A DNA stretch of 64,000 bases from Bordetella genomosp. 4. Lineage in GTDB: Bacteria; Pseudomonadota; Gammaproteobacteria; Burkholderiales; Burkholderiaceae_B. The DNA lies in NCBI RefSeq assembly GCF_002261185.1, contig NZ_NEVQ01000013.1, positions 1,178,001 through 1,242,000 on the forward strand, read 5' to 3'. Positions 11,156 to 29,950 of this stretch are shown here, piece after piece. How positions within the stretch are numbered: position 1 is the first letter of the stretch; the number at the start of each line of letters is the position of its first letter. The notes under the pieces are model-generated. The model saw only the letters and a list, made by a program, of their open reading frames with translations, searched no databases and was not told the origin of the DNA. A program made the position numbers and the translations under genes.

Positions 11156-11396
11156 CTATTGAGACGTCCCTGCCGGGGGCCGCGAATTGCCATGCCGGCC
11201 CTATCGCCTGGTCTGGCCGCCTGCGCGGCCAGACTACCCTTCGTCTGGCTTGTCAGGCGGGGCGGCTGGGCAAACTCGCTCCGCTACGCTGCGCTCAGAC
11301 ATGCCCAGCCGACTACCCCCCGCCTGACAAGCCAGACTCGGCAGCCTCAACGGGCCGGCATGGCAATTCGCGGCCCCCGGCAGGAACTCACAATAG
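11156..11396. repeat. Long palindrome A1 (family A)
   Basis: Perfect 33-bp inverted arms lie at 11169-11201 and 11352-11384; weaker pairing continues outward to about 11156 and 11396. The outer edge reads TTCCTGCCGGGGGC on the inverted side, followed outward by GTGAGT. Inside are two further inverted repeats: a perfect 10-bp stem (11211-11220 with 11225-11234) and a longer one (11244-11272 with 11301-11336). The same outer edge is found in A2 near 29.6 kb. It can be read as an open frame on the plus strand, but the palindrome explains that. No transposase is near. Confidence 0.85.
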
Positions 11397-11473
11397 TGGC
11401 ATGCGTGGAAAACAAATCCTCTTGGTCCACCTATGCTTTCTAATCTACATGCCGTGACATGCTGACCCCAAAC

Positions 11474-11511
11474 GTTGTCAATGGGCGCGCCCGTAGGCGC
11501 CCATTGACAAC
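11474..11511. repeat. Perfect 15-bp inverted repeat between palindromes A1 and B1
   Basis: GTTGTCAATGGGCGC at 11474-11488 is repeated inverted at 11497-11511, with an eight-base loop. No T-run follows on either side. It stands in the spacer between the two larger palindromes and has no counterpart in the second pair that I could see. Confidence 0.75.
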
Positions 11512-11594
11512 AGCACTGCGAGATCTTCTTCCTGGCAGAGATCAGTCCCTACGAAGCCTAAGCACGAAGTTCGTCCCAGCGTTGCCAGGAGCTT

Positions 11595-11770
11595 GAGACA
11601 TTGCGAGTCGATGCGGGGCAGTGGCCGCGTTGGGGCGCCTCGTGGTCGAGCGAGGGAAACCGAAGGAGCGCAGCGACGAGGTTGACGAAGCGGTGTCGGC
11701 CGCGCAGGCGGCCGACCGACCACGTGAAGCCCCAACGCGGCCGCTGCCCCGCATCGACGCCAAAAGAACC
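11595..11770. repeat. Long palindrome B1 (family B)
   Basis: Arms of 30 bp (29 identical) lie at 11607-11636 and 11729-11758, with a 92-base loop. The left flank is GAGACATTGCGAG (11595-11607) and the right flank GCCAAAAGAACC (11759-11770). Both flanks recur around B2 at 29.8 kb (GAGACGCTGCGAG and GCCAAAAGAACC), although the arms differ. The loop includes GTCGGCCGCGCAGGCGGCCG and an AAGCGG stretch. Reversed, these resemble the core of the A1 loop. The MOSC stop codon lies 26 bases beyond the right flank. Confidence 0.85.
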
Positions 11771-11795
11771 AAGCACCGACAACCAACAACAACCT

Positions 11796-12671
11796 CTAAA
11801 AATCAAGCTCGATTTCCACCTCATCACCCACATTCAATCGACTCCCCTCCGGCGCACTCACAATCGCGTTCTGGCCAAAGACAACGCCGATCTCCAATTG
11901 GCGATAGGTCGCCAGCGTACGCCCAGGCTCCTCGTAGCGCTCGCCTGTCAGTTGATCAATATTCGGCATAGGGCAACGCGTGCAAGGCTTTACCAGCGCC
12001 AGACGCACATCGCCGATCGACACCAACGCGGTGACATCCTCGTCAAAGGCCTCCCACTCACCCTCGATGACGATATTGGGCCGGAATCGATCCATCGGCA
12101 CAGGAGACTGACCCTTGGCAATCAAGCGGGCATTCAGATCATCGAGCGAAGCCTGATTGGCGATCAAAAGAGGAAAGCCGTCCGCGAATCCGAACACGTG
12201 ATCGCCGGCAAAGTCTTCGGCAAACTCGGGGTGAGCCTCTCGCCAACGATCAACCCAGTCGGCCTTGGCGGGCCGTTGTGCTTGTACATCGACCTTGACG
12301 AGCACGCAGCTCACGCCGAGCGCCTGACTGAGCCATGCAGCCGCATCGGGGCTCTCCTCGCGGGCGAGGACGGTGTCTTTCCACACGACCACATCGCGCA
12401 CCGTGTCATTCAATTGCGAGCCGTCGAGCGGAATTCGCAGTACGGGCTGACCGGGCGCCTGCAGCTCGAGATGAGTATCCGTGAGCGCCGGCCGAATCCG
12501 CGCCATCGCGGGCCACTGGCGCTGCGTCATGAACTGACCGTCGTCAGCGGTCAAGATCATCCAACGGCGATCACCGAGCAGACCCGCACGGTCGATAGAC
12601 GACGTGGACAAATCAATAGCGGCGCAAGATTTAATGGGATAGATATGCAGGCTGAGTATGCGAGCAGTCAT
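11796..12671 (-). CDS. MOSC domain protein (YcbX/mARC-like molybdenum cofactor enzyme)
   Basis: From the ATG at 12671 the protein has 291 residues. The N-terminal beta-barrel domain begins RILSLHIYPIKSCAAIDLS, then DRRWMILTADDGQFMTQRQWPAMARI. The MOSC domain holds FRPNIVIEG and LALVKPCTRCPMPNIDQLTGER. The Cys in the KPCTRC stretch is at the place that binds molybdenum cofactor in the family. Relatives such as YcbX reduce N-hydroxylated compounds; the redox partner is not encoded here, and no C-terminal 2Fe-2S domain is present. It converges on the Rieske gene across an 810-base palindrome-filled gap. Confidence 0.9.
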   Translation of the reverse strand: MTARILSLHIYPIKSCAAIDLSTSSIDRAGLLGDRRWMILTADDGQFMTQRQWPAMARIRPALTDTHLELQAPGQPVLRIPLDGSQLNDTVRDVVVWKDTVLAREESPDAAAWLSQALGVSCVLVKVDVQAQRPAKADWVDRWREAHPEFAEDFAGDHVFGFADGFPLLIANQASLDDLNARLIAKGQSPVPMDRFRPNIVIEGEWEAFDEDVTALVSIGDVRLALVKPCTRCPMPNIDQLTGERYEEPGRTLATYRQLEIGVVFGQNAIVSAPEGSRLNVGDEVEIELDF

Positions 12672-12762
12672 GACGGCGGCCAATGAGCGAAGAAGAGGAA
12701 TGCGCCAAGCTTAGCATCGGCGTGCATCTCGCAGGGTGACAGGTGGGCCGCCGGCGCTCCGG

Positions 12763-13668
12763 CTATTTACCCTCGCGCAATCGACGCAGCATTTCCAACG
12801 CCGTTTGCAGTGCAGCCTCCGCAGCAGCCAGTGACACCTCGCTCTGCGGCACGCCCCCGGCCGGGGTCATAGGCTCGGAATGTCTCGCGCCATCAGGCAA
12901 GGCCGCATGAACACGCTCGCCTGCTGGCGTCACATCGACATCGAACACCAGCTTTTCGCCGCGATGCCAGGTCGTGAACCACTCGAGCGCTTGGCCATGC
13001 TGATCGTGTCCTTGGCCTTCGAGCATGAGCAATGGACTGCCCTTGTTGACTTCCAGCGCATCCGCCAACGCCGCATCGGCGCCCACTGCGCGGATACGGT
13101 TGCGGCCGCGACCGGGGTGCAGGCCAAAGCGTTGTACCAGGATGCGATGCAGCGAAGCATCCTGCAAGTGATCTGCCGCCAAGCCCGGCAAACGCGCACG
13201 TGGCAACCACGTGCGGACAAAAGCCAAAGGCTCGTCATCGACGCGACGCAGCCTTTCTAATAACAACGTATCCTCAGAGCCAAAAAACGCCGCGACCTCG
13301 GGAGGCGGCGCGGCAGGCTCCAACCGCAATACCCGTGTGCGCAGTGCCGTTCCCGTACTGGCGAATTGTTCGAACAACCCCGTGGAGCGCTGCACCATAC
13401 GATGGTGTTCCAACACAGGGGCCACCGTAGGCGCCCGGCCAGGCTCGCGCCGGATCAACCCCTCGGCCACCAGCGCGGCCAAAGCCTGGCGCACCACACT
13501 GCGCGCCACGCCAAATTGACGACACAACCCTGCCTCACTCGGCAACGCCGTCCCCGGCGCCAATTGCCGCGCCTGAATATCCTGGCGCAGCGCCTGGGCA
13601 ACTTGTACATGCAGCGGGGCGCCGCTGGATCGATCCAACGGCGCCCCGAGGTCGGCGTTCAACGCCAT
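12763..13668 (-). CDS. GntR-family regulator (HutC/UTRA type) of the sugar-acid operon
   Basis: I place the start at the ATG at 13668 after GGAGG, giving 301 residues; the frame is open further upstream. The winged helix reads LPSEAGLCRQFGVARSVVRQ with ALAALVAEGLIRREPGR (about residues 30-75). A UTRA ligand domain follows (LRTRVLRLEPAAPPPEVAAFF, ERLRRVDDEPLAFVRTWLP). It is the last gene of the operon, four bases after pdxA2. It most likely controls the operon in response to the sugar acid or a pathway phosphate, probably through the palindrome at 17101-17126. Confidence 0.88.
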   Translation of the reverse strand: MALNADLGAPLDRSSGAPLHVQVAQALRQDIQARQLAPGTALPSEAGLCRQFGVARSVVRQALAALVAEGLIRREPGRAPTVAPVLEHHRMVQRSTGLFEQFASTGTALRTRVLRLEPAAPPPEVAAFFGSEDTLLLERLRRVDDEPLAFVRTWLPRARLPGLAADHLQDASLHRILVQRFGLHPGRGRNRIRAVGADAALADALEVNKGSPLLMLEGQGHDQHGQALEWFTTWHRGEKLVFDVDVTPAGERVHAALPDGARHSEPMTPAGGVPQSEVSLAAAEAALQTALEMLRRLREGK

Positions 13669-13672
13669 GAAA

Positions 13673-14728
13673 TCAGCCTCCGGTTGTGGAGCGCGCAGTT
13701 TCCCATACTTGCGACCAACCTGGGGCCAAATGTGCGGCACGCTCGGCAGCCAGGACCAGACTATCCTCTCGGGCGACGCCCTTGCCCGCGATGTCGAACG
13801 CGGTGCCGTGATCCACAGAAACACGCACGACCGGCAGGCCAACCGTAATATTCACGCCATCGTCGCCATAGACCGACTTGAACGGTGCATGTCCCTGGTC
13901 GTGATAGCAGGCAATCACGAACTTCCATTTGCCGCGCACCGCTTGCGGGAACAAGGCATCAGCAGGAATGGGACCCGCGGCGAGAATACCGGCAGCATTG
14001 GCCTCGGCCACTGCGGGCACCAGAATATCAGCGTCTTCTGTACCGAAAATGCCGTTTTCGCCAGCGTGCGGATTCAGGCCCGCGACGGCGACCGGCTCGT
14101 CGCTGCGACCCAGCGCTTTTGCAAACGAACCCGCCAAACGTAATACGGCGCGCATACGCTGTGGCGTCACATCGTCAATGGCCTGGCGCAAGGACACATG
14201 CGTCGTGGCATGGAAAATGTACAAATCGCCAGCGGACAATACAAGCGAGAAAGTCTTCACGCCGAATTCGTGGGCCAGCAATTCGGTGTGGCCCGGCCAC
14301 TTGTGGCCGCCCAGATGCATAGCGGCCTTGTTCAACGGCGCCGTCACAATGCCGTCGATACGGCCTTGGCGGGCCAGCTCGCAGGCGGTGGTGACAAAAC
14401 GCACCGAGCCTGCGCCCGCATCAGCGCTCAACTGGCCGAACGGGACGTGTTCCAACGATGGACCGGCCTGAATGACTTCGATCGTGCCGGGTTTGTTTTT
14501 CACCTGTTCCGGACCGTCGACGACGAGCACACGAGAGGCATCGGCGCCCAACGCCTGGGTCGCTTTACGCAATGCACCCGCATCGCCCACCACGACCAGG
14601 CGCGCACGTTGACGCAGATCGTCATGGCCCAACAACATTTTGGCGGTGATCTCCGGCCCAATCCCTGCCACATCACCCAGCGTGACCGCCAGGGTGGGAA
14701 TACGGTTGGGGGTTGCGTCTTGCGTCAT
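13673..14728 (-). CDS. pdxA2: PdxA2-type 4-phosphate dehydrogenase of four-carbon acid sugars
   Basis: This 351-residue member of the PdxA family reads LAVTLGDVAGIGPEITAKML near the start. Metal-site stretches are IVTAPLNKAAMHLGGHKWPGHTELLA and AGLNPHAGENGIFGTEDADILVPA, and ACYHDQGHAPFKSV is near the end. PdxA proper makes pyridoxal phosphate. When next to a DUF1537 kinase and a permease, the PdxA2 branch oxidises D-threonate 4-phosphate or D-erythronate 4-phosphate and decarboxylates to dihydroxyacetone phosphate. The context here favours PdxA2. A role in vitamin B6 synthesis cannot be excluded by reading alone. Confidence 0.85.
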   Translation of the reverse strand: MTQDATPNRIPTLAVTLGDVAGIGPEITAKMLLGHDDLRQRARLVVVGDAGALRKATQALGADASRVLVVDGPEQVKNKPGTIEVIQAGPSLEHVPFGQLSADAGAGSVRFVTTACELARQGRIDGIVTAPLNKAAMHLGGHKWPGHTELLAHEFGVKTFSLVLSAGDLYIFHATTHVSLRQAIDDVTPQRMRAVLRLAGSFAKALGRSDEPVAVAGLNPHAGENGIFGTEDADILVPAVAEANAAGILAAGPIPADALFPQAVRGKWKFVIACYHDQGHAPFKSVYGDDGVNITVGLPVVRVSVDHGTAFDIAGKGVAREDSLVLAAERAAHLAPGWSQVWETARSTTGG

Positions 14729-14730
14729 AT

Positions 14731-15990
14731 TCAGAATCTCCGTTCTCGGACCGCACGCGCGGCCCGGATCAATACATCGTCAGTGCCAAAGCCACCGGCC
14801 TTGGTCACAATGGGCAGCCCTGCGGCCGGCCCGCCGGTCAACGTGCCCAGCGGCACGCCTCCGGTGACTTCGTCTACCAATGCGATGCCGCCGGCCTGTA
14901 GCGCAGCCAGCACCGCACTGGCGCCATCGCCGCCCGTGGCGACCACTCCTGCGACTTTACCGGTACTATCCGCCGCTTCGCCCGCGCGTCCGACTTCATC
15001 GGCGTTCAAACCGCGCCGAATCAGCCGACCCGCCAACTCGCCCAGACGAGCGGCAACGGCACCCGAATCCAACCCGGCCAAGCGGCCTTCGGGCGCCAAT
15101 AACAATAAAGTGGCTTGTGGCGAGGCCGAAGCGACCGATTGGCAAACCTCGGCAGACCACTCTGCCCAAGCCGCATCATCGGCCAATTGCGCCAGCGTCG
15201 GAGACCATGTGCGTGCGCCATCGGCCTGCAGCGCCGCGGCCTGGCGACGTGCGGCACTGTGCTGCGATGTCACCACGACAACAACTGAGCCTTGGCTTTC
15301 TGCACCGGCCCACAAACGCGCCAACGGCGCAGCCAAGCCCCCGGAACCGACGGGCAAGGCACGTTCGCCAATCAACGCAATCGCGCGAGCCAGGCGGTCC
15401 ATATCCTGCGCCGTCGCGGCGTCAACCACCACGACGTCGCCTGCGGCCAGAATCCGGTCGGCCAATGAACGGGGCGTTTCGTCCGCCACGATCTCGACCT
15501 GCGCCCCGCCCAACAGCGTCGGGATATGGCTTTCGGTCACAGGCGTCACCGGATCCGTCGCAGCCGACGTCTCCGTCACGGGCTTGCCGTTCACATAAAG
15601 CACACCGCCACGCACCGTACGGCCCGTATCCGGAAACGCCGGACAGACCACGGCGATCGCGTCGTCACGCCATGCCTGACGGGCAGCATCGATCTCGGCC
15701 TTGAAGGCGCCGCGCAAGGTCGAGTCGACCTTTTTGTACAAACGTTTTACGCCAGCGGCCCGCAGCGCCGCCACATCCTCGCGCACGACAGCCGCGGCCT
15801 GCTCGGCCAGCAACGCCCGGCTATGCGTCGTGACGGCGACCACCTCGGCCTGGCTGGCAGCGGGATCGGCCAATGCCTGCTCGGCCCGGCCGACCGACAA
15901 CTGCGTGGGCCAGCCGGAGCGCACAAATTGCACAGCGGTGTCACCGGAGCCGGTCAGATCGTCAGCAACGATGGCGATGAACAACGTCAC
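14731..15990 (-). CDS. dtnK: DUF1537 four-carbon acid sugar kinase (D-threonate/erythronate kinase type)
   Basis: The protein has 419 residues. IAIVADDLTGSGDTAVQFVRSG at the start is the signature of this kinase family, with the Asp pair that binds substrate. KRLYKKVDSTLRGAFKAEIDAA is a second conserved block. The C-terminal nucleotide-binding domain has VVATGGDGASAVLAALQAGGIALVDEVTGGVPLGTL and LPIVTKAGGFG. It phosphorylates the terminal hydroxyl of C4 sugar acids. It lies two bases from both neighbours, permease and pdxA2. Whether D-threonate, D-erythronate or another tetronate is the substrate is not decided by sequence. Confidence 0.88.
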   Translation of the reverse strand: MTLFIAIVADDLTGSGDTAVQFVRSGWPTQLSVGRAEQALADPAASQAEVVAVTTHSRALLAEQAAAVVREDVAALRAAGVKRLYKKVDSTLRGAFKAEIDAARQAWRDDAIAVVCPAFPDTGRTVRGGVLYVNGKPVTETSAATDPVTPVTESHIPTLLGGAQVEIVADETPRSLADRILAAGDVVVVDAATAQDMDRLARAIALIGERALPVGSGGLAAPLARLWAGAESQGSVVVVVTSQHSAARRQAAALQADGARTWSPTLAQLADDAAWAEWSAEVCQSVASASPQATLLLLAPEGRLAGLDSGAVAARLGELAGRLIRRGLNADEVGRAGEAADSTGKVAGVVATGGDGASAVLAALQAGGIALVDEVTGGVPLGTLTGGPAAGLPIVTKAGGFGTDDVLIRAARAVRERRF

Positions 15991-15992
15991 GA

Positions 15993-17021
15993 TTACACCT
16001 TTGCGTCGGCAACCGCCGGCGTGTTTTCACCCAGAACGGCCGCAACATCATCAGCGGGTTTCAATTCACCAGCACGTTTCAGGAAATACGATGCCAACAA
16101 CGGAGCCAGGATCGAACTGATCAGCACGCATGCAGCCACCTGCGCAGTCGCCGTCCCGACATAATGCTGCAGCGATGGATCGGCGGCAGCAACGACGGCG
16201 GGAGTCGCGATCGCATTACCTGCAGTCGTGCCGGCAGCAAAGCCGATACCGCTCTTGCCACCACGGCGCAGAATATAGCGATAGCCCAGGTACACCAGGA
16301 AGCCGGTCACGGGGCTGATCAACAGCCCCAGGATCAGGCCGGTCATCCCGCCTGACACCACCGAGCCGAGGTTGATCCCCGTTCCCAATGCGAAAGCAAA
16401 AAACGGAATCACGATGTTCGGCACCGGCTTGAGCACATTACGCCATTGCACGTCCAGGTTGCCGACAACCACGCCCAGCAGGAAAGGCACCAGCGCAGCT
16501 ATCAAAGCGGTGACAGGGATATCGGCCAGCCCCGAGGCGCCAAGAAACAACAGGCTGAAGAACGGGCCATCATTTACGGCGCTGGCGACATACGCACCGC
16601 GGTCGCGGCTGTCGCCGTATTGACCGGTATAGGCCAGCCACAGGCCGCCGTTGCTGTTATCGAAAGCGGCCAGCATGGCCAGGATCGACACGCCCCATAT
16701 CCCGTCCAGCCCGACAAAACTGCCCAGCAGGATGATCAATGAGGCCGGCACGATGGTCTTCATCAACAAGATCGTGCCCGCGGTCGCCAGAATCGGGCCG
16801 CCGGTACGCATATTGACCTGGGTACCCGTTGCGAAAATGAGCAGCGCGATCAAAGGCATGGCGCTGTTCTTGAACAATGCCGTGGTAAAGCCCCCTACTG
16901 CCAGCGCGTCAGGCGCAAACGTGCCGATCAGGGAGCCGAGAATCAGGGGTAGCAGCATCAACCCGCCGGGCACCTTCATCATCGCCGAGAACATGGGGAA
17001 ACGGGAAACTTCGGGGTTCAT
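15993..17021 (-). CDS. KdgT-family sugar-acid/proton symporter
   Basis: The protein has 342 residues and about ten membrane spans. KVPGGLMLLPLILGSLIGTFAP at the N-terminus, LLIFATGTQVNMRTGG, AAFDNSNGGLWLAYTGQYGD and GIGFAAGTTAGNAIATPAVVAAADPS match the 2-keto-3-deoxygluconate permease family. As first gene of the operon with a C4-acid kinase and PdxA2, it probably imports the same tetronate rather than KDG. The ATG at 17021 follows GAGACGCCTCTCT. Confidence 0.88.
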   Translation of the reverse strand: MNPEVSRFPMFSAMMKVPGGLMLLPLILGSLIGTFAPDALAVGGFTTALFKNSAMPLIALLIFATGTQVNMRTGGPILATAGTILLMKTIVPASLIILLGSFVGLDGIWGVSILAMLAAFDNSNGGLWLAYTGQYGDSRDRGAYVASAVNDGPFFSLLFLGASGLADIPVTALIAALVPFLLGVVVGNLDVQWRNVLKPVPNIVIPFFAFALGTGINLGSVVSGGMTGLILGLLISPVTGFLVYLGYRYILRRGGKSGIGFAAGTTAGNAIATPAVVAAADPSLQHYVGTATAQVAACVLISSILAPLLASYFLKRAGELKPADDVAAVLGENTPAVADAKV

Positions 17022-17100
17022 AGAGAGGCGTCTCCAACGCTTTTGTCATAGGCCGGCCCGTCCACTGTAAACCGGATGCCGGGTGCGGAAAACGCGTAGT

Positions 17101-17126
17101 GTACAACCTATACGTACAGGTTGTAC
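17101..17126. promoter_or_regulatory. 26-bp near-perfect palindrome, probable GntR operator
   Basis: GTACAACCT at 17101-17109 is repeated inverted at 17118-17126, around a nearly symmetric centre. A further GTACGTAC overlaps the right arm. It lies about 80 bases upstream of the permease start, at the head of the operon that ends with a GntR-UTRA gene. That position and symmetry fit autoregulation. No experimental site is known to me for this regulator. Confidence 0.65.
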
Positions 17127-17381
17127 GTACAGAATTTGTAAATGATTGGCAGCAATAGCTGGGCGAAGCGTTGCGCGGAATACCGATATTTATCCCGAAT
17201 TACGACAAAAACCGACCCAATAAAACCCATTACAAACAAAAATGGAAAAATATTTTCAACAAATCCGGGTTTATCCCAGGTGCTGGCAAGCGCACAATGA
17301 ACTCATCGGGAAACAAACACGAACCACGACGGAAGACCGCCGGATTCCAAATCCCAAATTCAGACAAATGGAGGTCTTATC
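17127..17381 (+). promoter_or_regulatory. Upstream region of the DUF4148 gene
   Basis: This is an AT-rich stretch, markedly so at 17200-17270, with no open frame of its own. It presumably carries the promoter of the DUF4148 gene and part of the divergent sugar-acid promoter. The ribosome site GGAGGTC precedes the ATG at 17382. I see no repeat in it. Confidence 0.4.
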
Positions 17382-17711
17382 ATGAAAACCATAACTTCTG
17401 CCCTGCTAGTTTCGATGAGCCTGCTGAGCGCCGGCGCCTACGCCGCCTCGCCCAATATCGAACCTAACAACGTGCCTTTCCAAGGCGTGTATGGCCAAGT
17501 CGATGCCAACGCCCCGACCCGCGCTCAAGTCATGGCCGATCTGGCCCAAGCCAAGGCCGCCGGCCTGGTGACCTATGGCGAGGAAGAATATCCCGCGCAA
17601 GTCGCCGTCCACTCAGACAAGAGCCGCGACCAGGTCGTTGCCGAGTTGGCTCAAGCCAAGGCTAATGGCGAATACTCCTTCGGCGAACTGGACTACCCGG
17701 TTGTTCGCTGA
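17382..17711 (+). CDS. DUF4148 small periplasmic protein
   Basis: The protein has 109 residues with a clear signal peptide (MKTITSALLVSMSLLSAGAYA, cleavage after AYA). The mature part carries two copies of the family motif: TRAQVMADLAQAKAAGLVTYGEEEYP (about residues 47-72) and SRDQVVAELAQAKANGEYSFGELDYP (about 81-106). DUF4148 proteins are abundant in Burkholderiales and their function is unknown. The gene stands alone, with GGAGG before the ATG and a strong terminator after it. Confidence 0.9.
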   Translation: MKTITSALLVSMSLLSAGAYAASPNIEPNNVPFQGVYGQVDANAPTRAQVMADLAQAKAAGLVTYGEEEYPAQVAVHSDKSRDQVVAELAQAKANGEYSFGELDYPVVR

Positions 17712-17753
17712 GCGCCAGCAATAACGCCCCCAAAAGGAGGGCGCGGTAGCACC

Positions 17754-17790
17754 AAAAACCCTGCCATGCATTGCGCATGGCAGGGTTTTT
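17754..17790. terminator. Bidirectional terminator between DUF4148 and ankyrin genes
   Basis: A perfect 16-bp stem (17754-17769 with 17775-17790), bounded by five As and five Ts, serves both converging genes: DUF4148 on plus and the ankyrin protein on minus. Confidence 0.93.
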
Positions 17791-17838
17791 GTCATCACGA
17801 CGCGGCAAAAAAACGTGCGCGCGTTCCACCCATACTCA

Positions 17839-20085
17839 CTATGCGCGCATCAAGTCGACCAACCGGGACATGATTGCTCTGTCTCGCATCTTGGTTGCAT
17901 GTCCGAGTGCGTCCCGGAGATCTGCCCCTAGAGACAGCAATACCTGCGCCACGTCATCCTGCTTTTGTACAAGAGCCTCCACTAGTGCCACAGCGGTATT
18001 AGTCCCCAGGGACACCAGTCGTTTCGCCACTTCGATCTCGGCATTCGAAATCGCAGACACTAAAGTTTTCGGAGTGTCTACACCGGCTCCGATCAACACC
18101 CTCATCAGGTCGCTATTGTTCCCTGCAACCGCACGGATCAGCTCACGCTGCCCGTCAGTAATCGCCGGGATAAACTGCTTCACTCTCGACGGTTCGCCAC
18201 GCTCTGCCAGATATTTGAGAGTTTTAAAGACGTCGAGTCTTTCCCTCTGGATGAGAGCCTGAGCCAAACGGTTCCCTGTCGGCCTCATCAGCAGGTTTGC
18301 CAACACAATACTTTCATCGCAACCTGCGCGAATCAAGAAAGACAGGCGATCAAGATTATTGCTGTCCGTAGCGTCAACAATGGCATGATGGGGCTCTGCG
18401 CCCGCATCCAACAACAATCGCGCCAACGGCAAACACTTCAGCCTGGTCAACAGCATGAGCGCCTCTCCGGCAGCAGTCTCATCGGCATGCACCAGCTCGT
18501 TGATCAGCGCCCAATCGACGTTCCCAAGCGCGTGCAGCAACTCGGAAAAATTGCGGCGATCGTCCCCGGCATTCTTTGTCATCCCTTGGACGATCGTCTT
18601 GTACTCTTTTCCTTTAGGGCTGGCGATGTAGTCCTGAGCCACGATAAGCTTTGATGCCAGCGTAGCATCGGCATAGCCGGACCGCGCCATCTGCTGGCTC
18701 GTCTGGACCACCTCGTTATACGCCTGCGCCAGCGTAATCTCCAGATCGGCACGCTCAGGCACAGGAGCGTACAAGAGCGCGTCATTAATCGGTGCCTTGG
18801 CGGCAATCAATATTTTGGCCTCGGTTTTCTTGCCCTCCTTGGCCATGTCATACAAGGTCGAGGCAGAATCGACGCCAAGCGCAATCAACGTGCCTAGTGG
18901 TTCGATCTCGTCCGGGTGATCGACGGCGCCCATCGTCAGCGTTCGCACTAGCCCTGAGACGTTTGCGCCGGCGCGAATCAATAATTTCGCGTCATCTTTG
19001 ACCCCGAGCGTAAGCTGCTGGAACAGGAAATCGTGTACATCGACGCCCTCATCAATCAACAGTTTCACGGCGTCCTGACAGCGGCTCGCAGTCAAGGCTT
19101 TCAACACCTGCGTTTTGTCCAACTTGTCACTGATCGACGCTTCACCGAGCAACAACCGTACGGCCTTCACATCACCGTTTTTAGCCTGATTGATCAACGT
19201 GCTTTCAGCCTTGACGCCTGATTTCACTAACAGGCTCATAGCCTGGAGACCATGAGCCTCTGCGGCACGCATCAGCGCTTGCTCTCCTGTCGCGCCGAGC
19301 AGCAACAATGCGCGCACCGCCTCGACACTGTTGGCCGCGACAGCATGGCTCAACGCCGAGAATAGGTCGACGCCCGCTGAAATCAGGTGGCGCACAGCCT
19401 TTCCACACGCGGGCGACAGTGGGGAATGCTGTTCCAACATGCGCATCAGCACAAACGAAGCATCCACACCCGCATCCATCAATGTCTTTACTTTGACTGT
19501 ATCTCCCTCTTCACAAGCACGACGCAGTGCGGCATGCTGCCCGGCAAATAGTTTTTCAAAACCTAGAAGGCCAACTTTGAGCGCCCACGTATGCGCGGCA
19601 GCGACGTCTCCCTTCGTCGCAATCAATAGCAGTGCATTCGCGTACGTGTCGTCCTTTTGCGTGTCGCCCTCAACACTCCTCCCGACCGGGGGAGTCCCGC
19701 CCATCTCGATCAGAACTTTGATCAGCCGTAGATTTCGGGTATCTGCAGCAAGCCGTTCTACCGCAAGCGTCAGCGGTGTATGGCCGTCCCTGTTCACTGC
19801 ATGGATCGCAACGCTCATGTCGCTACGCGGATTTTCCAATAGCGCGATCGCGATACCGATTTTGCCTAGCGCGATGGCCAGATGAAGAGGGGTTTGTCCC
19901 TGGCTATCGACTGCCGACATATCGAACTGGAAACGAGCCAAGGCATCACGAACCGCATTCGGGGCGCCCTGCTCGATCATCGAAAACAACGCGTCAGGAG
20001 GCGGGGGCACGTCTGTTGGCGTAAGAGATCCGTAGATCTGGCCCGTTTCGGAAATTCTGGGAGGATTGTATTGTTCAGTCTGCAC
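17839..20085 (-). CDS. Large ankyrin-repeat protein
   Basis: This 748-residue protein is built mostly of ankyrin repeats. Clear examples are AVDSQGQTPLHLAIALGKIGIAIALLEN, NRDGHTPLTLAVERLAADTRNLRLIKVLIEMGG and AVAANSVEAVRALLLLGATGEQALMRAAE. Later repeats are degenerate. There is no signal peptide, membrane span or enzymatic domain; the proline-rich N-terminus (PTDVPPPPDAL) is flexible. The base composition looks less GC-rich than its neighbours and the codon use is mixed, which hints at acquisition. Ankyrin proteins bind other proteins; some are secreted effectors, but nothing here proves secretion. It stands alone. Confidence 0.85.
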   Translation of the reverse strand: MQTEQYNPPRISETGQIYGSLTPTDVPPPPDALFSMIEQGAPNAVRDALARFQFDMSAVDSQGQTPLHLAIALGKIGIAIALLENPRSDMSVAIHAVNRDGHTPLTLAVERLAADTRNLRLIKVLIEMGGTPPVGRSVEGDTQKDDTYANALLLIATKGDVAAAHTWALKVGLLGFEKLFAGQHAALRRACEEGDTVKVKTLMDAGVDASFVLMRMLEQHSPLSPACGKAVRHLISAGVDLFSALSHAVAANSVEAVRALLLLGATGEQALMRAAEAHGLQAMSLLVKSGVKAESTLINQAKNGDVKAVRLLLGEASISDKLDKTQVLKALTASRCQDAVKLLIDEGVDVHDFLFQQLTLGVKDDAKLLIRAGANVSGLVRTLTMGAVDHPDEIEPLGTLIALGVDSASTLYDMAKEGKKTEAKILIAAKAPINDALLYAPVPERADLEITLAQAYNEVVQTSQQMARSGYADATLASKLIVAQDYIASPKGKEYKTIVQGMTKNAGDDRRNFSELLHALGNVDWALINELVHADETAAGEALMLLTRLKCLPLARLLLDAGAEPHHAIVDATDSNNLDRLSFLIRAGCDESIVLANLLMRPTGNRLAQALIQRERLDVFKTLKYLAERGEPSRVKQFIPAITDGQRELIRAVAGNNSDLMRVLIGAGVDTPKTLVSAISNAEIEVAKRLVSLGTNTAVALVEALVQKQDDVAQVLLSLGADLRDALGHATKMRDRAIMSRLVDLMRA

Positions 20086-20306: not shown

Positions 20307-20339
20307 ACACACCTAACGCACAAGCCGAATATGGCGTTG

Positions 20340-21337: not shown

Positions 21338-21444
21338 TAGCCTCCTAATTCGTTAATCACTGGGTTGATCGATGCGCCCTCGATCACCTGCCGTAGACAT
21401 CAGAATGCTGAGCTACGACTGGCGACCGTCGAACGACTGCTCGA

Positions 21445-23150: not shown

Positions 23151-23258
23151 AGAATCCTCCCTTCATCTCGTGAATTGACAGACACAGCCGCACCGATGCC
23201 ACAGAAGGCATTCGGGCAACACTGCGTCCCGGTTCCAATAGACCGCAAACACACTCCC

Positions 23259-23819
23259 CTATTGGGGCGGCAGTGTGAACGGGCCTATCTTCAACAACAT
23301 CTCGTCGTCATGGTCTGCGCCACCGAACAACTGCCGATCAAAGAACGGCTGCTCGGAGACGTGCGCACCCAGCTCGCCGGCCAAGCCGGTGAACGTGCGG
23401 CGCGAGGCCTGGTTATCAGGACCTACCGTGGTTTCAAGATGACGAACATGCTTGAGCTCATCGCGTTGCAAGAGCTCTCGAAGCATGGCGCGGCCTAACC
23501 GTTGGCCGCGTGCTCGGGCGTGCACGGCAACCTGCCAGACGAAAATCACGTCGGGCCGGGTCGGCGGCACATATGCGGATATGAACCCATCGATGCGGCC
23601 GCCGGCACTCTCGGCTACCACACACGTGGCGCTGAAGTGCTCGCACAGCAACAGATAGGCATATAAAGAGTTGACATCGAGTGGCGGGCACTCGGAAACC
23701 AGACGGTGCAATGCGGCACCGTCGGTGCGACGCGGCTGCCTGAGTTGCAGACGCGATGATGAATTGGCCGGCTGAGCGGCCGAGGCTGGCAGAGAGGGGG
23801 TCAGGTCTTGCCCCCTCAT
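23259..23819 (-). CDS. ectA: Diaminobutyrate acetyltransferase
   Basis: The 186-residue GNAT enzyme transfers acetyl from acetyl-CoA to L-2,4-diaminobutyrate. EctA features are [45 protein letters not shown] and the acetyl-CoA loop [35 protein letters not shown] is near the end. The first 25 residues are a Ser/Pro-rich extension. The ATG overlaps the TGA of ectR (ATGA), so the regulator and the first enzyme are translationally coupled. Confidence 0.96.
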
Positions 23820-24361
23820 ACGACCAACCCCGACTCGGGCGGCGCACCGCCGGTGGGGACCTCGAGAATGGGCGAGGACACATCGCCATGCACTTCACTC
23901 ACATGGCCTTCTTGTTCCATTAGATTCACAATGCGCTCCAGCGCTAGGGTAATAGTGGCCTGCTCCAGTTCAGGCAAGGCATTCAGACCATCGGCCAGAT
24001 GCTTTTGCAGTGGCGACGGCGCCCCGGCCGCGAGATCGCGCCCCGCGTCGGTCGCGGTCACGAAAACAATACGGCGGTCTTCGCGGCCGCGTTCGCGGCG
24101 AACGAATCCCTTGTCCTCGAGGCGGTCCAGAATGCCTACCACGGTACTGGGGCTGACGTGGATTTCTCGGCTGATCGCCGTCGCCGTCAGGGGGCCATTG
24201 GCTATGACCGTGCGCAGGCACATCAACTGCGGCGCGGTGATGTGACTCACGGCGGCCAGTTGGCGCGAATGCAGCGCAATCGAGCGCGTGATGCGGCGCA
24301 AGGCACGCAAAATGCGCAGGTCGTACTGCTGTGACGGATCGGGCGTAGGTACGGTGTTCAT
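23816..24361 (-). CDS. ectR: EctR-type MarR regulator of ectoine synthesis
   Basis: The 181-residue MarR protein has a winged helix: [63 protein letters not shown]. EctR proteins repress the ect operon at low salt. Here ectR is the first gene of the operon, on the same strand and overlapping ectA by four bases. Repressor and enzymes would then share a promoter, so autoregulation is likely. The C-terminal [15 protein letters not shown] tail is disordered. Confidence 0.92.
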
Positions 24362-24730
24362 GACTGAAAATAGTTCAGCAGGATTAATTTCTACTCAAAT
24401 GATTCTACCCAGATAATATGCGGATGAGCCGACATGGTCAACCCGTGCTATCCAGAAAAAATGAAGAAATAAGCTCATATTTACAGAAGATAAAGAAAAA
24501 TATGAACTTTTTTATTTTCCCCCGGGAAAAGAATTCGTACGAATCGGACGGGAGAGACGCCGTGATTGCCCTGGAAAAGATGTGCGATTCAAGGGTTTCA
24601 GACACAGTCCAACGACAGAAAGCTATCGGGGCGCTCCTCAGGAATACCCTGATTGCAAAAAAAACAAACGTTTTCTACATTTCACATCCGTTCTCATGTG
24701 TTTTTTTGCGTAGCGGGCCGCCGTTCTTTC
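24362..24730. promoter_or_regulatory. Divergent promoter region ectR / RpiR regulator
   Basis: 369 bases, clearly AT-rich (24455-24540). It holds two palindromes: TTTTCCCCCGGGAAAA (24515-24530) and ATTCGTACGAAT (24533-24544), side by side. They could be operators for the RpiR regulator or another protein. An open frame from 24418 crosses the region but has no family resemblance or good ribosome site, so I do not call a gene. Confidence 0.45.
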
Positions 24731-25672
24731 ATGCCTCCTCCTTCTGCCCCACCGTTGGTATTGCAGCGCCTGCAAAGCCTCTTGGACCAATTGCCGCCTG
24801 AGCTGCGGCGGGCGGCGCATTGGGTGGTGGATCATCCCGCCGAGGTCAGCCTGTGGTCCATGCGGCGCCAAGCCCAGGGCGTGGGTGTTGCACCAGCCAC
24901 TATGCTGCGGCTGGCGCGCGCGGCAGGATACGACAGCTACGAGGCCTTTCGGGCGCCGTTTCAGGCAGCCTTGGCCGGCGAACGTCCTAGCACACTGCGT
25001 GAACGCGCTGCGGAACTGCAGGCGACTCAAGACCAAAACAATGTGCCAGGCCACGACAGGCTGACCGAGATACAAGCCGACGCCATCGAATCTATCGTCT
25101 CGGTAAACAGCCCGGCGACATTCGATGCCGCGGTCAAGACCTTGCTCACGGCGCGTCACGTCGGGTTTTTGGGCACGCGATCGGCCTTTGGCATTGCGTT
25201 TCAAATGCACTATGCCTATCAACTGGTACGACCCAACAGCATATTGATTGATGGACTGGGGGGCTTGCAGGCCGAGGCCATCGACAACCTGTGCGAGGGC
25301 GATGCGTTGATTGCCATTTCGCAAGCGCCCTACCCATCTGCCACAGTTCGTCTGGCGCGCCTGGCGGCTCAGCAGCGCGTGGCCATCATTGCTTTGACCG
25401 ACACCCCCTTGTCCCCCCTGGCCGCGGATGCCCGACACGTCCTGACGTTTGATCGCGCAGATCGCGAACAGGTCGGACAGCGGCCCGCGCGTCGAGGCCC
25501 GGGTTCGTTTTTCCATACGACGGCAGGACTACTGGGATTGGCCGAACACCTCATTGCCCGCCTCACTGCCCGCGGCGGTGAGGCGGTATTGAATCGACTG
25601 AGTGAAATCGAAGCACGTATGCATGCCGACAAAGTGTTTTGGTCGGCATCTGCCGCAGCACCGGATCGTTAA
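24731..25672 (+). CDS. MurR/RpiR-family regulator with SIS domain
   Basis: From the ATG at 24731 the protein has 313 residues. The N-terminal HTH_6 domain reads [58 protein letters not shown]. The SIS domain (about residues 120-260) holds [23 protein letters not shown] and [40 protein letters not shown]. RpiR proteins sense phosphorylated sugars or related metabolites. It precedes a TAXI-TRAP transporter on the same strand (115 bases) and is its likely regulator, although TRAP substrates are usually acids. Confidence 0.88.
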
Positions 25673-25787
25673 CTATTACGCGGCTTCGGAACATCCGGCG
25701 CCGCAGCCATCGCGCACCCTGGCTCGGGTGCATCATTTGCCGGAACACCGGCGGTTTTCACGGGGAAAATCCTCAAAAGGAGTTTGT

Positions 25788-26795
25788 ATGCGTCAGTTCG
25801 TCAAACCCACTTTGGACAACAAAAGAAAAACTGGGGCTCTGGCCGCCATGTGCGCCGCAATGGCCTTGGCGTTTGCCGCGCCGTCGCCCGCCTCGGCACA
25901 GCAGAAATTCGTCAGCATCGGCACCGGCGGCGTGACGGGGGTGTATTACGCCGCGGGCGGGTCGATTTGCCGTCTGGTCAACAAAGACCGCTCATCGCAC
26001 GGCGTGCGCTGCTCGGTCGAGTCCACCGGCGGGTCAGTGTTCAACGTCAACACCATCAAAGCCGGCGAACTGGATCTGGGCGTCGTGCAATCCGATGTCG
26101 GCTACAACGCCTACAACGGCGTCGGTCAATTCAAAGATGCCGGCAAATTCGAAAAACTGCGCTCGGTGTTTTCGATCCACCCGGAACCGTTCACAGTCGT
26201 AGCTCGCAAAGAAGCCAACATCAAGTCGTTTGAAGATTTCAAAGGCAAGCGCTTCAACGTGGGCAATCCAGGCTCGGGCACGCGCGCCTCCATGGAAGAA
26301 CTGCTGGCCACGATGGGCTGGACGCTGAAAGACTTCTCGCTGGCCTCTGAACTGCGGCCCGACGAGCACGGCTCGGCACTGTGCGACGGCAAGATCGACG
26401 GCTTCTTCTATGGCGTCGGCCACCCGTCCGCCAACATCCAGGACCCGGCTACCACTTGCGGCGCGCAACTGGTGTCTTTGACCGGTCCTGCCGTGGATAA
26501 ATTGGTCGAGAAATATGCGTATTACGCGCACGCCACCATTCCGGGCGGGCTCTACCCAGGCAACCCCAATGACACCAAGACCTATGGCGTCACCGCGACC
26601 TTTGTGACCTCCGCCGACGTGCCGGAAGAAACGGTGTACGTGATCGTCAAAGCCGTCTTCGACAATCTGGAAGACTTCAAGAAGCTGCACCCTGCCTTTG
26701 CCCACCTGAAGGCAGAGGACATGGTCAAGAACGGCTTGTCGGCGCCGTTGCATCCCGGCGCCCAGAAGTACTTCAAAGAAAAAGGTCTGCTGTAA
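25788..26795 (+). CDS. TAXI-family TRAP transporter solute receptor
   Basis: The 335-residue protein starts at an ATG after AAAAGGAG. A signal peptide of about 37 residues ends ASA-QQ. The mature part starts [27 protein letters not shown], the TAXI hallmark. [42 protein letters not shown] and [21 protein letters not shown] follow. It binds a substrate in the periplasm for the membrane unit downstream. TAXI receptors often take glutamate, succinate or fumarate; the ligand here is unknown. Confidence 0.93.
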
Positions 26796-26801
26796 ATACG
26801 G

Positions 26802-26847
26802 ATACGGTCTCGGCGCGCGCGCTCAGCGCGTCGCCCCGAGACCGTAT
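26802..26847 (+). repeat. GC-rich hairpin between TRAP receptor and permease genes
   Basis: ATACGGTCTCGG at 26802-26813 pairs with CCGAGACCGTAT at 26836-26847, and the loop contains further GCGC self-pairing. No T-run follows. Such hairpins downstream of receptor genes often stabilise the receptor mRNA so it is made in excess over the permease. The role here is inferred from position. Confidence 0.65.
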
Positions 26848-26927
26848 TCAGCAATTCGCCTGGCTGCGTCCAAGACCTATCACATCGCGCATGCCTGCCA
26901 GGCAGATCAACCATGTAGGGGAATCCG

Positions 26928-29540
26928 ATGAAAACTGAGCCGTCCACCACAACCGCTGATCTAGAGCAGTTGGTTGCGGACGTCGATCGCGGCGGACGCC
27001 AAGCAGGCGGAATCGCCGGCGCCACGTTGGCAATAGGTGCGCTGCTATGGTCGCTGTTCCAGCTCTGGTATGCCTCGCCGCTGCCGTTCTCGCTGCGCTG
27101 GGGCATTTTCAATGATACCGAGGCGCGCGCACTGCACCTGGGCATCGCGATGTTTTTGGGCTACTTGGCCTATCCCGCACGCAAGAGCTCGCCGCGCGAT
27201 CGCATGCCGTGGCACGACTGGATACTCGCCATCGTCGCAGCCTTTTGCGGCGCGTATTTGTTTTTGTTTTACAAAGAACTGGCAGGCCGTCCTGGCCAGC
27301 CCACCACGATGGATGTGGCCACCGCGGCCATCGGTCTGGTGCTGCTGCTGGAGGTCACACGCCGCTCGCTAGGCTTGCCCATGACGGTGCTCGGCGCCGT
27401 ATTCGTGCTGTACGTACTGGCCGGCCCCTGGCTGCCCGACGTGCTCGCGCACCGTGGCGCCTCCATCGAGCGGCTCGCCTCGCATATGTGGCTGACGACA
27501 GAGGGCGTCTACGGCGTCGCGCTGGGCGTGTCGGTCTCGTACATCTTTATTTTTGTCTTGCTGGGTTCGCTGCTGGACAAATGCGGTGCGGGCAACTACA
27601 TGATGCAAGTCTCATTCGCACTGCTGGGCCACTTGCGTGGCGGTCCGGCCAAAGTCGCCGTCGTATCGTCTGCGGTCAACGGACTGGTCTCTGCCTCATC
27701 AGTCGCCAACGTGGTCACAGGCGGGATTTTCACCATCCCCTTGATGAAAAAAGCCGGCTATGGCGGCATTCGTGCAGGCGCTATCGAAACCGCATCATCG
27801 GTCAATGGACAGATCATGCCCCCGGTCATGGGAGCAGCGGCATTTCTGATGATCGAATACGTCGGCATCCCCTACACCGACATCATTCGCCACGCGATTC
27901 TGCCGGCCTCGATCTCGTACATTGCGCTGTTCTACATCGTCCACCTGGAAGCGCTCAAGCTCGGCATCCAGCCCATGATGTCCGGCGGCAAACCCCGTAC
28001 GCCACTGCAGAAACTCGCAGGTTGGGGCATGGGAATTTGCGGCACGCTGATCGTCATGGGATTGGTGTACTGGATCGGGATGGGTGTCAAAGCGGTCGCA
28101 GGCGCGTCTGCGGTCTGGATACTGCTGGCGCTGCTGGTGATCCTGAACGTCTGGCTGCTGCGTGTGGCAGCACGCTATCCCGATTTGTCCGAAGAGATCA
28201 ACGTCACAAACCCTGTGCGTCCCGAGCCATGGCCCACCGTACGGGCCGGCCTGCATTTCCTGATCCCCATCGGCATTCTCGTATGGTGCCTGAGTATCGA
28301 GGAACTGTCTGCCGGGCTGTCCGCATTCTGGGCCGCCGTCGCGATGCTGGTGCAGATGATCACGCAGCGTCCTCTGACTGCATGGTTCCGGCAACAACCC
28401 GTCGCACCTGCTCTGCAGCGCGGCTGGCGTGAGGCTATCGGCGGACTGGAGGACGGTGCCCGCAACATGATCGGCATCGCCATCGCCTGCGGCACTGCAG
28501 GACTGATCGTGGGCGCGATCACGCTCACCGGCCTGGGCTTGCGCATGACCGCGTTCGTCGAATTGGTATCGATGGGCAACGTGCTGCTGATGCTGATCTT
28601 TACCGCCATCGTGTGCCTGATTCTGGGCCTGGGCATGCCGACCACGGCCAACTACATTTTGATGGCCACCTTGATGGCCCCTGTGGTTGTCGAACTCGGT
28701 GCGCAGAACGGACTCGTGATTCCGCTCATCGCCGTGCACATGTTCGTGTTCTATTACGGGATCATGGCCGACATCACACCGCCAGTGGGGTTGGCCACTT
28801 TCGCTGCGGCGGCGATTTCCGGCGAAGATCCCATCAAGACCGGCATCCAGGGCACGACCTATGCATTGCGTACCGCCGTGCTGCCTTTCATGTTTGTCTT
28901 CAACCCGCTGCTGTTGTTGATCGATGTGCATGGATGGGCGGAGTTGCTGTTGGTGATCACCGGCGCGACCTTGGCGTCCCTGACCTTTGCAGCAGCAACG
29001 CTGGGTTGGTTCCGTGTGCGGTGCACGATCGTCGAGATCGCTGTGCTGCTGCTGGTGACGTTCATGCTGTTCCGCCCAGACTGGTTCATGAACCATCTGT
29101 ATGGCAAATACGAAAGCTTGCCTGCGTCCCAGATCAATCAGGTCGCATCCGAACTGCCTGACAGCGGTCGGCTGGTCGCGGTCTTGCATGGCATGAACAT
29201 CGAGGGCGATGAGCTTACGAAAACGGTTGCCGTGACGCTATCGCCATTGCCCGAAGGCGATACCAGCACCGGTGTCGCCGCAGGACGCAAGCGACTGAGC
29301 GACGCCGGTCTCATGGTCACGGCCTTAGGGGATCAAGTCCAAATTGGCGCTGTGCAATTCGGCAGCCGTGCGCGCAAGGCAGGATGGGAGCAAGGATGGG
29401 ATGTCGTCAGCGTCCAGATTCCGAATCCGCATCGGCCGTCGGAGTTCTGGGTGTATATCCCGGCGTTGGCGCTGTTGGCAGCGGTGTGGGGATTGCAAGG
29501 ACGTCGGCAGCGTCGGGAGTTAACGCCTTCTGTCGCGTAG
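26928..29540 (+). CDS. TRAP transporter fused permease (4TM/12TM) with DUF3394 tail
   Basis: The 870-residue protein fuses the small (DctQ) and large (DctM) units, as TAXI systems do. Residues 1-180 hold four to five spans. The DctM part holds VVSSAVNGLVSASSVANVVTGGIFTIPLMKKAGYGG and IETASSVNGQIMPPVMGAAAFLMIEYVGIPY. Later spans include LILGLGMPTTANYILMATLMAPVVVELG and FVFYYGIMADITPPVGLATFAAAAISGEDP. The last 160 residues are a DUF3394-type domain (DWFMNHLYGKYE onward) of unknown role. It uses a sodium or proton gradient. GTAGGGGA precedes the ATG. Confidence 0.95.
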   Translation: MKTEPSTTTADLEQLVADVDRGGRQAGGIAGATLAIGALLWSLFQLWYASPLPFSLRWGIFNDTEARALHLGIAMFLGYLAYPARKSSPRDRMPWHDWILAIVAAFCGAYLFLFYKELAGRPGQPTTMDVATAAIGLVLLLEVTRRSLGLPMTVLGAVFVLYVLAGPWLPDVLAHRGASIERLASHMWLTTEGVYGVALGVSVSYIFIFVLLGSLLDKCGAGNYMMQVSFALLGHLRGGPAKVAVVSSAVNGLVSASSVANVVTGGIFTIPLMKKAGYGGIRAGAIETASSVNGQIMPPVMGAAAFLMIEYVGIPYTDIIRHAILPASISYIALFYIVHLEALKLGIQPMMSGGKPRTPLQKLAGWGMGICGTLIVMGLVYWIGMGVKAVAGASAVWILLALLVILNVWLLRVAARYPDLSEEINVTNPVRPEPWPTVRAGLHFLIPIGILVWCLSIEELSAGLSAFWAAVAMLVQMITQRPLTAWFRQQPVAPALQRGWREAIGGLEDGARNMIGIAIACGTAGLIVGAITLTGLGLRMTAFVELVSMGNVLLMLIFTAIVCLILGLGMPTTANYILMATLMAPVVVELGAQNGLVIPLIAVHMFVFYYGIMADITPPVGLATFAAAAISGEDPIKTGIQGTTYALRTAVLPFMFVFNPLLLLIDVHGWAELLLVITGATLASLTFAAATLGWFRVRCTIVEIAVLLLVTFMLFRPDWFMNHLYGKYESLPASQINQVASELPDSGRLVAVLHGMNIEGDELTKTVAVTLSPLPEGDTSTGVAAGRKRLSDAGLMVTALGDQVQIGAVQFGSRARKAGWEQGWDVVSVQIPNPHRPSEFWVYIPALALLAAVWGLQGRRQRRELTPSVA

Positions 29541-29585
29541 TTGATGGGTTGATCGTTTGCTTGCGGGAACGTTCTCTGTGAACAC

Positions 29586-29719
29586 GTTCCTGTCGGGGGC
29601 AAAACGCCTAGCCGAGCCTATCGCACGGACTCGCCCCATGACCAGGGGGCTCGGCCTCGCTACGCGAGGCTAAATCCGTGCTCTACGGCGCGGCTAGGCG
29701 TTTTGCCCCCGACAGGAAC
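29586..29719. repeat. Long palindrome A2 (family A)
   Basis: Perfect 29-bp arms at 29586-29614 and 29691-29719 enclose a 76-base loop. The outer edge GTTCCTGTCGGGGGC and the following ACTCACAGTAG match A1 (GGAACTCACAATAG beside GCCCCCGGCA), although the inner arms differ. The loop contains GCCTCGC-TAC-GCGAGGC and GCACGGA...TCCGTGC. It lies 45 bases after the TRAP permease stop. Strong enough to stop transcription, but there is no T-run. Confidence 0.87.
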
Positions 29720-29790
29720 TCACAGTAGAGATGAATCACGGATGCAGACGACGTATAGAGCGTGCACATGTTGAGAGCTGCCGTGAATAA

Positions 29791-29950
29791 GAGACGCTGC
29801 GAGCCAGGCCTCGCCGTGCAAAAGGGGCACCGGGCCGTAGAGCGCGGATTCAGCCTCGCGCAGCGAGGCCGAGGCCCCTGGTCATGGGCCGAGTCCGTGC
29901 GATAGGCCCGGTGCCCCTTTTACACGGCGAGGCCTGGCGCCAAAAGAACC
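29791..29950. repeat. Long palindrome B2 (family B)
   Basis: Arms of 34 bp (33 identical) lie at 29803-29836 and 29905-29938. Left flank GAGACGCTGCGAG and right flank GCCAAAAGAACC are shared with B1. The loop (29834-29906) matches the inverted loop of A2 (29617-29689) in 68 of 73 bases. The stop codon of the FAD oxidoreductase lies 36 bases beyond the right flank, after an A/C-rich AACAACAAAC stretch also seen at B1. Confidence 0.87.

Follow-up and report, generated by a model that had tools for sequence, protein, structure and literature searches.

What do long palindromes do between the ends of two genes that face each other? The question was raised by two convergent junctions in 64,000 nucleotides (nt) of Bordetella genomosp. 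4 (the window, contig NZ_NEVQ01000013.1, positions 1,178,001 to 1,242,000). A sequence-only reading of the window had described at both junctions one palindrome of family A near the plus-strand gene and one of family B near the minus-strand gene, and had suggested a repeat family at gene 3' ends or a paired RNA structure. All four palindromes (A1 and B1 at junction 1, A2 and B2 at junction 2) were located where that reading had put them (Table 1). They belong to a family of hairpins, present throughout the genus, with RNA-type covariation on one strand, a C-rich tail on that same strand, a preference for convergent junctions and an inverted order in pairs. We consider it somewhat probable that hairpin and tail together act as a Rho-dependent 3'-end module of the far gene, such that A would serve the minus-strand gene and B the plus-strand gene.

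Similarity searches of the genome with sites 1 and 2 returned 63 and 68 matches, some of which are the two arms or strands of one place. The hairpins analyzed comprised 128 copies of 98 to 222 bp as detected, divided into class I (51 copies; median length, 133 bp), class II (17 copies; 218 bp) and class III (60 copies; 162 bp), and in all of these, nearly perfectly complementary, fast-changing arms surround a conserved core of one of three types. In this genome, 50 places scored above 97 bits with a covariance model of class I, and a model of the leader that precedes class III hairpins gave 80 matches, mostly as pairs in opposite orientation. Because the genome searches scored limited numbers of candidates, all copy numbers are lower bounds. 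Contigs C1, C2, C6, C8, C11, C12, C15 and C21 of the assembly (G000) have ends that fall within these elements; the repeats probably broke the assembly, which would likewise make the copy numbers lower bounds.

The manner in which the arms change identified the strand that acts. In class I, 38 of the 53 consensus pairs were changed on both sides somewhere with pairing retained. Transition mismatches at pairs predicted on both strands were counted core-forward in 73 of 92 hairpins, off-length ones and L108 being excluded, and A.C was found in 22 pair-columns versus 2 for G.T (P = 3.6e-5; 8:1 in class I, 10:0 in class II and 4:1 in class III) or, by cells, 38 versus 2. A balance of the two would be expected if the DNA duplex or both strands equally were selected. 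An A.C read core-forward is a G.U on the opposite strand, here called the RNA-sense strand. The same direction was observed in 60 hairpins of other Bordetella genomes (27 versus 7; P = 8e-4), from which matches that were weak, cut off or duplicated on the opposite strand had been excluded along with identical copies, and in 9 further hairpins of the same genome (11 versus 2). Another 27 class III hairpins, among which just 8 arms were distinct and one of these had wrongly placed ends, contributed two A.C and no G.T, and the stems of H1, a small hairpin within the class III leader, contained four G.U and no A.C in the same RNA sense. Since G-to-A and T-to-C directions were both present, deamination alone is insufficient to account for the asymmetry, and since the pairs contain both orientations, replication-strand effects cannot be its cause. 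These results show the hairpin to be active as RNA, in the direction that leads from the spacer to the neighboring gene's 3' end.

Folding pointed to the same strand. The RNA-sense strand gave the more stable fold in 119 of the 128 hairpins, and GTAG or GTTG was confined to an internal loop on that strand. Compensatory pair changes combined with one-strand tolerance of G.U are what a structured RNA is expected to show, and the conclusion that the hairpin functions as RNA on the RNA-sense strand only is well supported, as was the suggestion of an RNA structure in the earlier reading. A candidate role of the hairpin as part of the 3' untranslated region (UTR) of the nearest gene was dropped, since the G.U and tail tests both indicate the other strand.

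The second strand-specific feature lies behind the hairpin. From 15 to 75 nt downstream in the RNA sense, the composition was 29% A, 41% C, 15% G and 15% T, and C exceeded G in 125 of 127 hairpins (50/50 in class I, 15/17 in class II and 60/60 in class III). Among relatives, C exceeded G behind 55 of 57 hairpins compared to 34 of 57 on the other side of the hairpin, this set being the 60 of the mismatch test without the second hairpin of L188, L192 and L193. At junctions that lack hairpins, the same strand after stop codons had no such skew (about 28% C and 30% G in 126 sequences). A 78-nt window, the size used for Rho sites in Bordetella pertussis as described in PMC9426467, with an excess of C over G of at least 20% was found behind 107 of 127 hairpins versus 18 of 229 control stops. 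The tail is, in other words, C-rich, G-poor untranslated RNA, the "C>G bubble" that characterizes Rho-dependent terminators. Immediately after the hairpin (0 to 15 nt), the RNA sense contained 36% A, 30% C, 19% G and 15% T, with the other strand continuing as TCRCA, and the U tract that directly follows the hairpin of an intrinsic terminator was absent from this RNA-sense composition. The skew was also present within genes: the last 100 nt of 151 genes beside hairpins, read antisense, had 35.5% C and 23.6% G versus 30.9% and 29.7% in 279 other genes. Coding ends that adjoin hairpins are accordingly G-rich in sense, a pattern that would arise if selection on the antisense tail extended into the reading frame.

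Moreover, the hairpins are not placed at random with respect to genes. Of 65 junctions with hairpins, 42 were convergent and 3 divergent, versus 16 and 45 of 251 other junctions (P = 1e-22 for convergent), with genes called by our own codon-score finder rather than taken from curated annotation and with background junctions drawn from the same stretches, themselves chosen around hairpins. An independent set chosen with the leader model and assigned by reading of the stretches was convergent at 15 of 18 sites, three further contig-end stretches being left unscored. The repeat family at gene 3' ends that the sequence-only reading had suspected was thereby supported. The hairpins form 74 clusters. 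Two-hairpin clusters number 27 (9 III+III, 9 I+I, 6 I+II, 2 I+III and 1 II+III), and in every one the hairpins are inverted towards each other, a strict order that supports the earlier reading as well. An obligate A/B pair, in contrast, did not hold up: 47 clusters consist of a single hairpin, at least 8 of them at contig ends, and the pairs come in five combinations of core classes. Independent edges in random orientation were what that reading had named as speaking against its proposal; independence was indeed found, but random orientation was not.

From these results, and from what is known of Rho, a mechanism can be proposed in which each palindrome would encode a long RNA hairpin active on a single strand, and the order in the RNA would be transcript, hairpin, Rho-loading tail. 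RNA polymerase leaving a gene would pass the intergenic region, transcribing first the hairpin and next the tail; Rho would bind the tail, and transcription would stop where the opposite gene has its 3' end, or slightly within it. Exonucleases acting 3' to 5' would then shorten the RNA to the hairpin, which would shield the mRNA. The plus-strand transcript would thus contain A in the wrong sense, the spacer, B in the right sense and the B tail antisense to the end of the minus-strand gene, and the minus-strand transcript would be the mirror image, ending at A and its tail. The earlier assignment of A to the plus gene and of B to the minus gene therefore appears reversed by the strand signals, which place the RNA of A on the minus strand and that of B on the plus strand. 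Rho binds C-rich, G-poor, unstructured RNA, and in Escherichia coli Rho-ended RNA is trimmed to an upstream stem-loop, as described in PMC9927376; the order of hairpin and then tail in the RNA sense matches that scheme. C>G bubbles also marked an experimentally confirmed Rho terminator in B. pertussis, according to the description in PMC9426467, and a rho gene is present in the genome. Rho action at these modules is our inference from sequence, as are the steps presumed for it: transcription running on from the far gene, loading of Rho, trimming and mRNA protection.

Several observations weigh against this proposal. The tail was present (C>G) behind 53 of 54 hairpins that stand isolated, including those into which no gene is transcribed, and so may belong with the element itself and not with its use. 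By itself the tail cannot separate C-richness of the far transcript from G-richness of the near one, a choice that is decided only by agreement with the G.U test, and a cruder version of the mismatch test, on the outer 26 nt of the arms, was weak, although in the same direction (11 A.C versus 5 G.T). In pairs, a median of 424 nt of read-through would be needed from the far gene to the distal hairpin. Single hairpins between tandem genes were co-directional with the upstream gene in just 10 of 15 cases (P = 0.30). Finally, intrinsic terminators were not depleted at gene ends of hairpin junctions (22/84 versus 7/32 at others; P = 0.81), figures that also leave unsupported the idea of the hairpins as replacements for intrinsic terminators, and junction 1 itself retains an intrinsic-terminator-like hairpin before A1.

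We considered the possibility that the hairpins are instead non-autonomous mobile elements resembling miniature inverted-repeat transposable elements (MITEs), in which the inverted order would reflect terminal inverted repeats, and the preference for convergent junctions would show where insertions are tolerated. This explanation is plausible, if a little short of probable. Ten composite units made of two class III hairpins (III-III units; about 700 to 865 bp) were 82 to 96% identical with sharp ends, a subfamily of eight such units was 88 to 94% identical, and three I-I pairs were 93 to 94% identical across 506 to 578 bp. The III-III units have several marks of a MITE, being short units that lack a transposase gene, carry inverted repeats at their termini and occur as dispersed near-identical copies; no gene was predicted within the two-hairpin clusters in the subset of the 27 that was checked. 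At junction 1 of the related genome G007, the genes are 64 bases apart with a short terminator alone, and A and B are absent. Against mobility, no target-site duplication was visible by eye, with no statistical test, in 50 nt of flank on each side of ten III-III units. Neither is a mobilizing enzyme of the Y1 type (PF01797) encoded, since the search gave no match in the genome while the control search was positive in E. coli. The earlier statement that no transposase explains the palindromes thus stands for Y1, the family of the RAYT (REP-associated tyrosine transposase) enzymes, across the whole genome, other transposase families not having been searched. An origin from RAYT and repetitive extragenic palindromic (REP) sequences was rejected for a genome without this transposase. 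As to a plasmid or phage origin, one III-III unit was unmatched in plasmids and the site 1 sequence was unmatched in phages.

Comparison of orthologous junctions also bears on mobility. At three junctions (L118/L189/L210, L124/L183 and L207/L184), species shared the position and orientation of their hairpins, the arms of which had changed on both sides, something that mobility would not lead one to expect; at L124/L183, the second hairpin differs in core class. The arrangement differed within each of the orthologous pairs L085/L214 and L074/L220, and a comparable hairpin was not seen in the examined stretch of L191 (versus L123) or of L174 (versus L089). In-place orthologues, presence or absence at a junction and near-identical units together indicate both inheritance in place and spread. 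Mobility leaves the one-strand G.U and the one-strand tail unexplained. It is compatible with the Rho-dependent module, our preferred function, as spread could carry the modules. A more tentative extension, and one we regard as rather less probable than not, is that the III-III units (about 800 bp) are portable bidirectional Rho terminators with two crossed 3'-end modules, which on landing between convergent genes would give both of them new mRNA ends and overlapping antisense 3' UTRs, and would shape the adjoining coding ends into Rho-loading antisense.

Another alternative is stabilization of mRNA 3' ends without Rho, the hairpin only blocking exonucleases, as proposed for REP RNA, with the composition of the tail incidental. 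The great stability of the hairpins in the RNA sense and their location at 3' ends would fit such a role, but the skew of the tail is strong, confined to one strand, found again in relatives and missing at control stops, and we consider this explanation unlikely. Still less likely are outward promoters in the spacer, with the hairpins as parts of small or antisense RNAs against the 3' ends of both genes. The RNA sense does run outward from the spacer, and class III has a conserved leader carrying a hairpin of its own; however, no sigma-70-like consensus promoter was present in the one interior scanned (L105, 2160 to 2650), and many single class I and II hairpins have no leader. Action at the DNA level (as cruciforms, as gyrase sites or as insulators that separate converging transcription units, the arms being kept perfect by template-switch correction) is already disfavored and very improbable, because its fit to the nearly perfect Watson-Crick arms and the convergent location is outweighed by the strongly one-sided ratio, in this and other genomes, of A.C and G.T mismatches, which should be equal, and by a tail that it does not predict.

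If the Rho-dependent module is correct, one consequence would be for the mapping of transcript ends. How transcription ends between convergent genes in high-GC bacteria is poorly mapped because Rho terminators have no fixed sequence; here, more than 100 Rho-dependent ends of one genome could be located from sequence, including strand and direction. Bordetella repeats listed in 2006 to 2008, for which the literature searched gives no function, would acquire one, and the family would provide a clear case of fast stem evolution with pairing kept on a single RNA strand.

The elements share a common plan. Oriented by the core, a TTCTNTTNRGNC-like flank is followed by G-arm-core-arm-C and then by TCRCA. 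The inner parts of A2 and B2 are 91% complementary across 82 nt, that is, one core in opposite orientation between different flanks, which shows that A and B are not two unrelated elements but types of flank. Either flank version can carry core I or II, whereas class III has B-like flanks, preceded on the spacer side by a leader of about 140 nt that includes H1, with varying arms and a kept loop.

Class I was present in all nine Bordetella genomes examined, including that of the window. It had one or two weak matches apiece in 5 of 10 genomes from the family's remaining genera and was missing from all 12 genomes of other families. The leader model similarly matched 7 of 8 other genomes of the genus; it also matched 2 of 10 genomes of other genera and, in other families, none of 12. 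In a genome collection, 18 of 19 stretches with the class I core came from named Bordetella records, and the remaining one was from Roseomonas. In this record (L163, 6389 to 6413), from outside the Betaproteobacteria, the class I core pattern is matched exactly once, by chance or by transfer.

Intergenic repeats of Bordetella have been catalogued before. Petrillo and colleagues described short Bor repeats (PMC1590033) and, in 2008, the intergenic stem-loop families Bor-1 and Bor-2 (PMC2267715), with 196 copies of 117 bp and 17 copies of 167 bp, respectively, given for Bordetella bronchiseptica. These resemble the present hairpins in genus, intergenic location and predicted structure, with sizes near those of classes I and III, but differ in that function, pair order, strand sense, tail and arm covariation are not reported in the accounts consulted from PMC2267715 and PMC1590033. 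Compared by description only, Bor-1 and Bor-2 are at most catalogued relatives of the hairpin family. PMC2267715 was the one paper returned by a literature search on Bor-1, and within the literature searched, which does not extend to other papers, none connected repeats of this kind with Rho or with 3' ends that are crossed. The BRE repeat of Hot (2011; PMC3110155), also compared by description, is likewise a Bordetella intergenic repeat and has a detected transcript, but it is described there as about 90 bp and tandem, with 8 to 22 copies per genome, and without paired inverted order.

REP sequences and bacterial interspersed mosaic elements (BIMEs) are palindromic and intergenic, lie mainly between convergent and co-directional genes and often form head-to-head dimers, as summarized in PMC3733652, and the Bordetella hairpins are alike in all of these respects. 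REPs are, however, 20 to 40 bp long with an unpaired GTAG or CGTC tag at one end (PMC3733652), compared to 98 to 222 bp here with GTAG/GTTG only in the internal loop, and in that account the GTAG families are linked to Y1 transposases, which this genome does not have, and the CGTC type is not. With regard to action, the galM Rho terminator, as presented in PMC9927376, is similar in that a stem-loop precedes an unstructured region rich in C and poor in G, with the galM 3' end at the stem-loop; in Bordetella, the combination differs in recurring as a repeat family, in its very long hairpins and in being crossed between two genes, and it is known here from sequence alone. The family is REP-like in place and layout, and its likely action is that of a Rho terminator with a guard hairpin, yet it is larger, strand-marked and crossed.

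Within the window (Table 1), folding of A1 as RNA gave z = -16.4 and folding of B1 as DNA gave z = -10.4, with none of 200 shuffles equal in either case, so both are non-chance palindromes. Site 1 has a third, smaller hairpin, H1, within the conserved leader of B1, in addition to the two described earlier. The tails behind A1 and A2 are milder than those behind B1 and B2. A search of the 64 kb against Rfam at the gathering threshold gave no match to a known RNA family.

Table 1. Features of the two hairpin-bearing convergent junctions, in window coordinates (base counts of tails are out of 90 nt)
Feature	Position	Strand	Remarks
Plus-strand gene, junction 1, Rieske oxygenase-like	9840..10985	+	GbcA matches weak, below cut-off
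Short intrinsic-terminator-like hairpin, 3' of plus gene, before A1	11041..11069	+	From reading of the sequence
Tail behind A1 in its RNA sense	11076..11165	-	C 29, G 16
Palindrome A1, core class II	11166..11387	- (probable RNA sense)	
Conserved class III leader preceding B1	11467..11606	+	Model R2; ends with GAGACATTGCGAG
Hairpin H1 in leader	11474..11511	+	Conserved loop, complementary variable arms
Palindrome B1, core class III	11607..11758	+ (probable RNA sense)	
Tail behind B1, running antisense into minus gene	11759..11848	+	Begins GCCAAAAGAACC; C 35, G 7
Minus-strand gene, junction 1	11796..12683	-	No match in NCBIfam
Plus-strand gene, junction 2, TRAP transporter fused permease	26928..29540	+	TIGR02123
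Tail behind A2 in its RNA sense, overlapping plus-gene end	29496..29585	-	C 30, G 20
Palindrome A2, core class I	29586..29719	- (probable RNA sense)	
B-type flank preceding B2	29791..29802	+	GAGACGCTGCGA(G)
Palindrome B2, core class I, inverted relative to A2	29803..29938	+ (probable RNA sense)	
Tail behind B2, running antisense into minus gene	29939..30028	+	Begins GCCAAAAGAACC; C 41, G 7
Minus-strand gene, junction 2, FAD-dependent oxidoreductase	29987..31198	-	TIGR03364 family

The short motifs noted earlier at the edges of the palindromes were compared with the sequence. The B flanks GAGACNNTGCGAG and GCCAAAAGAACC are present at both B sites and nowhere else in the window, and the distances of 26 and 36 bases to the stop codons of the minus-strand genes agree with the sequence. 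The edges of A carry CCTGYCGGGGGC at all four positions, but the longer TTCCTGYCGGGGGC only at three, the left edge of A1 being GTCCCTG, and the GTGAGT noted outside A is present on the spacer side but absent from the other. A genome search for the edge motifs, as the sequence-only reading had suggested, showed the exact strings to be rare (8 matches for CCTGYCGGGGGC and 4 for GCCAAAAGAACC), with two false sites, L001 and L004, where the motif occurs without a palindrome; similarity searches found a far larger family, which is detectable only in that way and by covariance models.

A few other palindromes were encountered. Two further convergent junctions of the window (17753 to 17791 and 39954 to 39996) have short palindromes with A/T tracts, typical of bidirectional intrinsic terminators. 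In L123 (2376 to 2664), a class III hairpin directly adjoins GTTTCACGTGAAAC palindromes, which resemble parS sites; the orthologous stretch of G007 has the GTTTCACGTGAAAC palindromes without the class III hairpin. Another palindromic repeat, with cores GTGTCTGACTCCC...GGTGTCAGACACC, lies at junctions of other Bordetella genomes (L199, L201, L173, L174 and L220) and could be the published BRE; in L199 it recurs every 240 bp or so, together with pieces resembling the end of the TRAP gene.

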